Shown: one piece after another, positions 2,803-63,192 of the stretch
Position numbering within the stretch: position 1 is the stretch's first letter
How the letters are laid out: every line of letters begins with the position of its first letter
DNA from: Corynebacterium sp. HMSC08A12
GTDB taxonomy: Bacteria; Actinomycetota; Actinomycetes; Mycobacteriales; Mycobacteriaceae
Assembly (NCBI RefSeq): GCF_001807485.1
Contig: NZ_KV789190.1
Span: 134,089-198,088 of the forward strand
Direction of reading: 5' to 3'
Length of the DNA stretch: 64,000 nucleotides
Notes under the pieces: model-generated
The model's database searches: none
What the model saw: only the letters and a program-made list of their open reading frames with translations
What the model was told of the DNA's origin: nothing
Made by a program: the position numbers and the translations under genes

Positions 2803-4149
2803 ATGCGCTGGGTGGCTCACATCGACATGGATGCGTTCTTCGCTTCCGTCGAGCAGCTCACCCGGCCGACCCTGCGCGATAGGCCGGTGCTGGTTGGCGG
2901 CCTGGGTGGCCGTGGGGTGGTCGCCGGTGCCTCCTATGAGGCCCGGGCCTTCGGCGCCCGCTCGGCGATGCCGATGGGGCAGGCCGTGCGCCTGTGCAAC
3001 AACCGCGCCGTGGTGGTCCGGCCGCGCAAGGAGGTTTACGCGGCCGCCTCCCGCCGCATCTTCCAAGTCATCCGCGCCCACGCGGGCGTGGTGGAACAGC
3101 TATCCGTGGACGAGGGCTTCGCCGAGCCGCAGGGGCTGGAAAGCACCGAGGAGGCCCGCGCCTGGGCCGAGAACCTGCAGGCCAGGGTAGAGGAGGAGAC
3201 CGGCCTGCCCGCTTCCGTCGGCATGGCCGCCACCAAGCTGGACGCGAAGATGGCCAGCGACCTGGCCAAGCCCCACGGAGTGTTCGTCGTGCCGCCCGAG
3301 GCACGCATGGAGGTCTTTGCCGACCGTCCCGTCGGCGACGTGTGGGGGATCGGCAAGGTCGCACAGGGCAAGCTGCACACCATGGGGATCGACACGATCG
3401 GCCAGTTCGTTGCCGCCGACACCACGGACGTGCGTGGTGCCCTGGGCTCGGTTGGGGTGGAGGTGCAGCGCATGGCTGCCGGCGACGACCCGCGGCCTGT
3501 TGCTCCCCGCGCGCCCGCCAAGCAGGTCAGTGCGGAAAGGACTTTGCAGGTGGACGCGCGCACCACCGCCGAGGCCATGCGCGTGCTGCACGAGACTGCC
3601 CTGGCCATGCACCGCCGCCTGCTGAAGGATGGCCGCGCCGCGCGTACCGTGACGGTCAAGACGCGCACCACCGACTTTCAGCTGCACACGAAGTCCGCCG
3701 GGCTGCCCGCGCCGACGGAGGACTTCGACAAGATCTTCGCCCTCGCTCAGCGCCTGATGCCACGTCCCGAGCAGGCCGGTGCCTTTCGCCTGGTCGGGGT
3801 GAGCGTGTCTGGGCTGGTGGCCGACCGCCAGGAGCTGCTGTTCCCCGAACTCGACGGCCCGCCGGTGCCCATCGCCGCGCCCACCGATAGCGATGTGGGG
3901 TTTAGTTCGTTGGGCGATGACGCCACCACGGCCCGCCCCGTGTGGCACGCCACCCAGGATGTATCGCACGTGGAGTTCGGGCACGGGTGGGTGCAGGGAG
4001 CCGGCAACGGGGTGGTCAGCGTGCGTTTCGAGACCGCCGCGACCGGCCCGGGGAAGACCCGCACCTTCCGCATTGACGACGAAGACCTAAGCCCTGCCAA
4101 CCCGCTGGACAGTCTGGCCTGGGATCTCGACGGGTTGGCGGAGGACTAG
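2803..4149 (+). CDS. dinB: DNA polymerase IV (Y-family)
   Basis: Error-prone translesion polymerase. The 448-residue protein opens with the Y-family motif HIDMDAFFASVE (metal-binding Asp8 and Asp10), and the second catalytic motif SVDEGF gives Asp103/Glu104. Helix-hairpin-helix and little-finger regions follow (about 170-340). The C-terminal 90 residues are a less conserved tail with no obvious beta-clamp peptide beyond possible QELLFPEL. The ATG at 2803 is chosen because the conserved domain begins within six residues. It lies 23 nt after ileS and may be co-transcribed with it. It is convergent with the asparaginase gene, leaving only 14 nt between stops. Confidence 0.93.
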   Translation: MRWVAHIDMDAFFASVEQLTRPTLRDRPVLVGGLGGRGVVAGASYEARAFGARSAMPMGQAVRLCNNRAVVVRPRKEVYAAASRRIFQVIRAHAGVVEQLSVDEGFAEPQGLESTEEARAWAENLQARVEEETGLPASVGMAATKLDAKMASDLAKPHGVFVVPPEARMEVFADRPVGDVWGIGKVAQGKLHTMGIDTIGQFVAADTTDVRGALGSVGVEVQRMAAGDDPRPVAPRAPAKQVSAERTLQVDARTTAEAMRVLHETALAMHRRLLKDGRAARTVTVKTRTTDFQLHTKSAGLPAPTEDFDKIFALAQRLMPRPEQAGAFRLVGVSVSGLVADRQELLFPELDGPPVPIAAPTDSDVGFSSLGDDATTARPVWHATQDVSHVEFGHGWVQGAGNGVVSVRFETAATGPGKTRTFRIDDEDLSPANPLDSLAWDLDGLAED

Positions 4150-60086: not shown

Positions 60087-60368
60087 TTGAGAGAGCCTCG
60101 CTCTGCTTCGGTGGTTCGGGATTTTCGCGTGTCCGAACGGTACCGCACCGAAAACAAGGAACTCCGCCCACTAGCGGAGCGAGCTAAGGAAGCCGAGGAA
60201 GCAGGCAAGAGTGAACTGCAGAAAGCACAGGAACGCATAGCCGCCCTAGAAGCGGAAAAGCAAGAGAGCGTTCTTGCTGCGGCTCGGATAGCACCGCTCC
60301 CCGGTGGGGACATTTTGTGTTTGTGTGGCACGTTTTCGCCACGACAATCCCACGACATAAGGGACTAA
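60087..60368 (+). pseudogene. Fragment resembling a phage capsid scaffold protein
   Basis: An open stretch without a good start (TTG 60087 or GTG 60129) or ribosome-binding site. Its middle, about 60129-60285, encodes a charged coiled coil (RTENKELRPLAERAKEAEEA, ELQKAQERIAALEAEKQE). This is the pattern of tailed-phage scaffold proteins. The end becomes Cys-containing and unrelated (GDILCLCGTF), as after a truncation. It lies about 100 bp from a tRNA gene, a common phage integration target. I judge it a prophage remnant; it could also be a short helical protein. Confidence 0.4.
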
Positions 60369-60463: not shown

Positions 60464-60537
60464 TGCCCCAGGTGAGACTCGAACTCACACTGGACGGGTT
60501 TTGAATCCGTTGCCTCTGCCAATTGGGCTACTGGGGC
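60464..60537 (-). tRNA. tRNA with CAA anticodon (Leu by anticodon) but short variable arm
   Basis: A 74-nt cloverleaf on the minus strand. The acceptor stem is GCCCCAG/CTGGGGC with discriminator A. The D arm is GCC...GGC, and the T arm GTGAG-TTCGAGT-CTCAC. The anticodon loop TTCAAAA gives CAA, which reads UUG (Leu). The anticodon stem closes with an A-C mismatch. The variable loop is only 5 nt, whereas bacterial tRNA-Leu normally has a long variable arm. The D arm and upper anticodon stem look more like tRNA-Gln. No CCA is encoded. Divergent from polA; the amino-acid identity is uncertain. Confidence 0.75.
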
Positions 60538-60599
60538 GAAAAGTGCTTACCGGAGCATAATACGCCACGGCCATTCAGCCAACCAAAACCGCACTCCGT

Positions 60600-60612: not shown

Positions 60613-63192
<2,580 letters not shown>

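Follow-up and report, generated by a model that had tools for sequence, protein, structure and literature searches.

The window, i.e. the whole 64,000-nucleotide stretch of DNA from Corynebacterium sp. HMSC08A12 that was analysed, contains a single tRNA called by ARAGORN, a tRNA-Leu(CAA) on the minus strand. The Rfam tRNA family (RF00005) matches the same bases (60537–60464; 54.5 bits, E-value 5.7e-9) over model positions 1–71 of 71, i.e. over its full length. The gene, its parts and its neighbours are as follows:

60464..60537, minus strand: class I-shaped tRNA-Leu(CAA), 74 nt (ARAGORN; Rfam tRNA, 54.5 bits; DNA match in genomes of the genus)
60501..60503, minus strand: anticodon CAA, reading UUG (ARAGORN, anticodon at tRNA position 35)
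60489..60493, minus strand: 5-nt variable loop CCAGU, its last base being U48, the partner of A15 (direct reading)
60512..60528, minus strand: 17-nt D arm GCC-CAAUUGGCAGA-GGC with C13 (direct reading)
60498..60506, minus strand: anticodon loop with the closing A31.C39 mismatch (bases 60506 and 60498; direct reading)
60464, minus strand: discriminator A73 (direct reading)
60557..60562, minus strand: TATTAT, a possible -10 element of the tRNA promoter (found by eye; weak)
60613..63192, plus strand: 859-aa frame, which we take to be polA (DNA polymerase I); divergent neighbour and marker of the locus
60087–60368, plus strand: 93-aa frame on the 3' side of the tRNA, with a weak match to phrog_1793, a phage head-scaffold family (E-value 1.2e-5)

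The sequence-only reading of this DNA had described a 74-nt gene with a CAA anticodon and a 5-nt variable loop, which is borne out by ARAGORN, Rfam and direct reading and is now placed on the minus strand. Of the two hallmarks of bacterial tRNA-Leu, the gene exhibits the leucine anticodon (CAA), while the long variable arm of class II is replaced by the 5-nt loop. The anticodon loop reads UUCAAAA, and CCA is not encoded in the gene. The single mismatch noticed earlier in the anticodon stem was identified as A31.C39; it is common to 17 of the 37 CAA copies and to none of the 40 UAA copies in alignment A3, which comprises 81 hand-chosen 74-nt class I copies (79 distinct), forms with longer or shorter D-loops having been left out. 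The proposed likeness of the D arm to tRNA-Gln did not survive comparison with the tRNAs of the same genome: its length and its AA..GG.AGA motif are those of the six leucine tRNAs, and the motif is found also in tRNA-Lys(CUU), tRNA-Trp and tRNA-Ala(UGC). The two tRNA-Gln lack the motif, but possess the A15-U48 pair; descent from tRNA-Gln was dropped, as both the D motif and G73 differ.

The TATTAT hexamer is identical in the own locus and its five closest loci in the genus. A scan for promoter and terminator consensus sequences around the tRNA detected nothing, and a hairpin downstream of the gene was not supported as a fold (z 0.03). The minimum-free-energy fold of the unmodified window transcript is not a cloverleaf; when three single unmodified class I tRNAs were folded in this way only the UAG gene approached one, and the method is uninformative here.

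The source genome is a draft (2.21 Mb, 99.9% complete, 30 contigs, with N gaps), in which Rfam identified 51 tRNA matches, all of which were read. ARAGORN called 49 of them, corresponding to 46 distinct strings; the other two are interrupted by Ns, and outside the gap their sequences are similar to tRNA-Arg(ACG) and tRNA-Val(GAC). The leucine tRNAs fall into three class I genes (CAA, UAA and UAG, 74 nt each) and three class II genes (CAG, GAG and UAG, 82–86 nt). Neither CAA nor UAA is represented by a class II gene among the 51 matches of the draft, thus the UUG and UUA codons depend on the class I pair (CAA, UAA). The UAG anticodon occurs in both a class I and a class II gene (L071 and L072). 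A covariance model of class I genes (R1), built from six sequences including the three of this genome, scored those three at 89–103 bits, and the next tRNA at 56.5 bits (35 loci given); the next-best scores are nearly equal, with tRNA-Arg(ACG) at 56.5, class II tRNA-Leu(UAG) at 54.6 and tRNA-Lys(CUU) at 54.2 bits.

In E. coli, the leucine determinants are A73, A15-U48, G18-G19, A20a and the contacts of the D- and T-loops, and the long arm is not among the known ones (PMC9976931). A73, A14, A15-U48, G18-G19 and A20a are all present in the window gene. Compared with the class II tRNA-Leu of the E. coli type (PMC9976931), it shares the leucine anticodon, A73, A14, A15-U48, G18-G19, the length of the D arm and the AGA, and differs in the missing long arm and in C13, where G13 or A13 is found in the class II leucine genes of the genomes sampled (31/31); C12-G23, found in nearly all class I copies of A3, is a further difference. 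The meaning of the codon was assessed from an alignment of PolA from 15 members of the genus (the own sequence and those of 14 of the 29 other loci): UUG is aligned with leucine in 584 of 766 pairs with non-UUG codons, UUA in 139 of 216 pairs and, for comparison, CUG in 1184 of 2192. Each of nine genomes searched (9/9) has one LeuRS gene over the cut-off. The LeuRS frames fall into a long group (952–1018 aa; G000, G234, G517, G544) and a short one (836–864 aa; G436, G446, G498, G554, G567). An insertion in LeuRS was considered as the partner of the class I body and rejected, since the length of LeuRS does not follow the tRNA class: G544 has the long form and showed no class I tRNA-Leu, while G436, G446 and G498 have the short form and did show it.

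We consider the window gene very probably a working leucine tRNA without a long arm, and we assign a probability of roughly 0.93 to its being the regular tRNA-Leu(CAA) of the cell, with a class I body, charged by LeuRS and reading UUG as leucine. The class I body would keep the parts that bacterial LeuRS reads (A73, A14, the A15-U48 Levitt pair, G18-G19 and the A of AGA), so that the single LeuRS could charge it with leucine; it would read UUG, while its class I sister with the UAA anticodon would read UUA and probably UUG. The earlier suggestion of a functional isoacceptor with unusual charging is strongly supported in its first half, through conservation, covariation, the lack of other UUR tRNAs in the genome and the replacement by class II genes, whereas unusual charging appears unnecessary, as the E. 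coli determinants are kept. A tRNA charged by another synthetase, which would turn UUG partly into another amino acid, is suggested by the class I shape and by the likeness to tRNA-Lys; however, the CAA anticodon lacks the U35/U36 that LysRS reads, UUG is aligned with CUN codons for leucine, and in sister genomes a class II tRNA-Leu(CAA) takes the place of the class I gene, which makes such recoding scarcely credible.

A 94-base query gave matches in 199 of the 201 genomes of the genus, the own one included, of which 189 are strong (E-value 8.3e-20 or better) and 10 weak; two genomes have no match. Among the best 30 loci of the genus (including that of the window) the mature tRNA hardly varies, in contrast to most of the flanks, which have diverged, and the changes at pair 6-67 are compensated or result in a wobble pair. 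In A3, 98.5% of the cells are in standard pairs and 19 of 20 base pairs show two-sided changes, values reached in none of 500 shuffles, although the fitting of A3 to the model somewhat favours the structure. This is not the relaxed constraint of a tRNA pseudogene, in view of both the near-invariance in the 30 loci read and the compensated pairs, and it contradicts the earlier idea of a decayed tRNA. A decayed or silent gene would account for the A31.C39 mismatch, the non-cloverleaf minimum-energy fold and the missing consensus promoter, but the mismatch is shared by other copies and the genome has no other CAA tRNA; together with the conservation and covariation this leaves the pseudogene explanation hardly tenable.

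The linkage to polA, which the sequence-only reading had proposed to check in related genomes, was found in 21 of the best 30 loci of the genus, own included. Beyond the genus such proximity is uncommon, polA being close by in 8 of 59 CAA loci (a count that includes the locus of the window itself), and the linkage is therefore a trait of the genus. A second, diverged class I CAA copy, with G-U pairs in the anticodon stem, was noticed at one locus (L060:2493–2567), 1 kb from the first.

The same conservation bears on the proposed acquisition from a phage, which was not supported for the window gene. Phages do carry class I tRNA-Leu, and the 93-aa frame 3' of the tRNA, with its weak similarity to a head-scaffold family, could be a trace of a phage or another mobile element. 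Yet the match extends to 199/201 genomes of the genus, polA lies near the gene in most of the best 30 loci, the identity at the best-matching places of 282 phage records does not exceed 90–95%, and the four other nearby frames have no match in PHROGs (none of the five matched Pfam over the cut-off), hence a recent acquisition of this kind is very improbable. An ancient phage origin of the gene, or its use as an attachment site, may nevertheless be considered. The tRNA-Leu-CAA gene of M. smegmatis functions as attB-11, with phage Gaia supplying a copy of its own (PMC10865867, which also calls the mycobacterial tRNA set minimal and non-redundant); taken together with the weak scaffold match, this case provides a hint that the window gene serves as an attachment site, and the 93-aa frame is possibly a remnant of a prophage integrated there. 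The attP half-site of the Omegavirus Courthouse includes the anticodon loop, a 5-nt variable loop and the T arm, hence the CAA gene of M. smegmatis would also be of class I if the Courthouse attP mirrors attB as it does for Omega.

Class II UUR genes were sought with a pattern that requires a GCG/CGC D stem and consequently misses other D stems, such as that of bldA. The pattern is present in 37 of the 197 genomes of the class, and all 30 of its loci that were read are of class II (26 CAA and 4 UAA). Class-wide, it occurs in 4/113 genomes with at least two class I matches, in 21/60 with one and in 12/24 with none (p 1.6e-10, overstated by the relatedness of the genomes). In the genus the same pattern is found in 11 of 201 genomes, as tRNA-Leu(CAA): it is present in 10 of the 12 genomes that lack a strong class I CAA match versus 1 of the 189 with it (Fisher p 3e-14, overstated in the same way), the single genome with both being G185. 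The remaining two of the 12 are G168, which has a diverged class I CAA gene, and G118, which is 53% complete; G118 aside, the other 11 were searched again with R1, and all of them (11/11) have a class I UAA gene. The loci of ten of the eleven pattern genomes were read (not that of G127), and in nine of the ten polA lies in the same 3-kb stretch as the class II CAA gene, divergent and about 0.1–0.9 kb off; the tenth locus, without polA, is that of G185. Class I and class II CAA genes with an identical acceptor stem are seen in G034 and G048, though there is no polA at the G034 locus.

Thus, the class I and the class II form of the CAA gene stand in for one another in one neighbourhood, and for this reason they most likely do one job. 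This reciprocal replacement is the most telling indication that the class I form functions as tRNA-Leu(CAA). Odd gene forms were also observed among these genomes. In the class I CAA gene of G168 (L404) the inner 15 bases of the anticodon arm are those of the class II CAA genes, and it is possibly a recombinant intermediate. G176 (L405) and G124 (L406) have odd extra class I CAA genes beside the class II CAA gene, with an odd tRNA-Gln near L405.

The distribution of the class I form was analysed with R1 (E-value 1e-12 or better), which gave a match in 142 of 150 genomes of the order, in 173 of 197 of the class and in 84 of 246 of the phylum; the counts represent upper bounds at their weak end, where R1 matches may be other isotypes. 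The loci read, which were best matches or were picked by place and in part recur between the sets, were class I tRNA-Leu in 29/29, 19/20, 24/24, 20/20 and 23/23 cases, the twentieth of the second set being a placeholder range. Twenty further loci of the phylum, many of them from the weak tail, comprised 12 class I tRNA-Leu, 7 tRNA-Lys, -Met or -Arg and 1 class II tRNA-Leu. Altogether 113 distinct class I sequences were read from 177 locus entries, a count that includes forms with other D-loop lengths. Within the genus the codon of the window gene is usually served by the short form, which is also common across the bacterial class. Short UUR leucine genes with a class II-like GCG/CGC D stem (the stem being required by the search pattern) are found also in other phyla, by record title e.g. 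in Acidobacteria, Planctomycetes, Chloroflexi and Lachnospiraceae MAGs.

The two forms are combined in different ways in individual genomes, as revealed by a class II model (R2) run over eight of them (E-value 1e-8 or better). At this threshold R2 detected no class II UUR gene in G234, G436, G446 and G498. G567 has a class II CAA and a class I UAA gene, while G544 and G554 have both CAA and UAA in class II form and are absent from the R1 matches of the phylum. The tRNA-Leu(UAA) encoded by bldA reads UUA in Streptomyces, a high-GC actinomycete; in G517, apparently a Streptomyces-like genome, the bldA-like UAA gene is of class II, unlike the window gene, and it is accompanied by a class I CAA gene.

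The lack of the long arm is associated with a particular base in the D stem. A73, A14, A15, U48, G18, G19 and A20a are present in 81 of 81 copies of A3; in the 113 distinct class I sequences C13 occurs in 113, A14 in 113, A15 in 112 and U48 in 111, the two exceptions to A15-U48 being L210 (A15/C48) and L216 (G15/C48). Named genomes were also scanned with position 13 left free, and all 80 stretches listed, from a total of 97, were read. Among the 67 tRNAs called in them, C13 is found in 35 of the 37 short ones and G13 in the other 2, while G13 occurs in all 30 long ones; this tally excludes 14 of the 81 pattern matches, for which no tRNA was called, and the C13 counts overstate the strength of the rule, as related sequences are not independent. 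We infer that arm loss goes with C13, which could pair with the conserved G of AGA and rebuild a core of the class I type with one bulged A.

As to the origin of the class I form, derivation from a class II leucine tRNA appears to be the preferable explanation. Alternatively, the body of another class I tRNA, e.g. of the tRNA-Lys type, could have been recruited by a change of its anticodon to CAA or UAA, followed by the gain of one D-loop base and of leucine identity. The own tRNA-Lys(CUU) has the same A73, A15-U48 and D-loop motif, hence descent from a class I tRNA is possible, and the near-equal R1 scores of tRNA-Arg(ACG), class II tRNA-Leu(UAG) and tRNA-Lys(CUU) (56.5, 54.6 and 54.2 bits) agree with it. 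However, the 17-nt D arm fits that of leucine tRNAs without a gap, the short UUR leucine genes of other phyla exhibit the GCG/CGC D stem of class II (albeit set by the pattern), and within one genus both forms of the CAA gene are found close to polA, the acceptor stem being the same in G034 and G048 (G034 without polA). Recruitment is thus unlikely, though it deserves more attention than the alternatives discussed above, and derivation from class II remains our preferred reading.

Several known systems are partially similar to the window gene. The tRNA-Leu(UUR) of animal mitochondria is likewise a leucine tRNA without a long arm, is recognized via A73 and A14, and has an anticodon arm that is floppy in vitro (PMC9976931), but the window gene resides on the chromosome of a bacterium that also has class II leucine tRNAs for CUN and a LeuRS of the bacterial kind. 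A copy derived from tRNA-Met also combines the CAA anticodon with the lack of a long arm; it is recent and hardly expressed (PMC8450103), whereas the window gene is conserved and represents the sole CAA tRNA of its genome. Class I tRNA-Leu genes of Mycobacterium, Rhodococcus, Citrobacter and Lactobacillus phages have the same short loop and a similar D arm; their anticodons in the four genes read (L359, L360, L361 and L362, from Citrobacter, Rhodococcus, Lactobacillus and Mycobacterium phages) are UAG (three) and CAG (one), in contrast to CAA in the window. A 2023 review places leucine tRNAs without a long arm only in animal mitochondria. It has been stated generally that class I structures took over some functions of class II (PMC2265525), and type II tRNAs have been reported to be processed to type I (PMC6214036), the UUR leucine tRNAs being named in neither of the passages concerned. 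Our searches of the open-licence literature revealed no report that the UUR tRNAs of Actinobacteria are class I leucine tRNAs. Since phage records already label such genes plainly as tRNA-Leu, the actinobacterial class I tRNA-Leu is an overlooked variant rather than a new kind of molecule.

A broader interpretation, which we regard as somewhat favoured, is that bacterial leucine tRNA may have two interchangeable body plans, and that the UUR set of Actinomycetota could have switched class on several occasions, following the C13 rule and, within one genus, in the vicinity of a single landmark gene. One LeuRS would then serve both plans, while the UUR pool would be inaccessible to SerRS and could be regulated separately. 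If true, two body plans would put an end to the rule that leucine tRNAs of bacteria belong to class II: a long variable arm is regarded as a defining feature of these tRNAs, and a class I match is found in up to 173 of the 197 genomes sampled from the class. A natural experiment on the arm requirements of LeuRS, SerRS, EF-Tu and the enzymes that modify tRNA is provided by sister species in which either the class I or the class II form lies near one landmark. Class I leucine genes may also be scored as odd by isotype models that presuppose a long arm.

Class I tRNA-Leu(UAA) genes were observed also in some Streptomyces, including Streptomyces bluensis (L339) and the loci L286, L300, L321 and L331. 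In S. bluensis about 500 bases separate the class I UAA gene from a class II tRNA-Leu(UAA) resembling bldA (L339:3458–3532 and 4034–4117), and a second reader of UUA in Streptomyces could bypass the control exerted by bldA. Finally, three sequences from Maricaulis and Oricola (L291, L332 and L336) combine a 5' half like that of class II tRNA-Leu(UAA) with a class I-like 3' half; they are not called as tRNAs and look like attachment-site mosaics.
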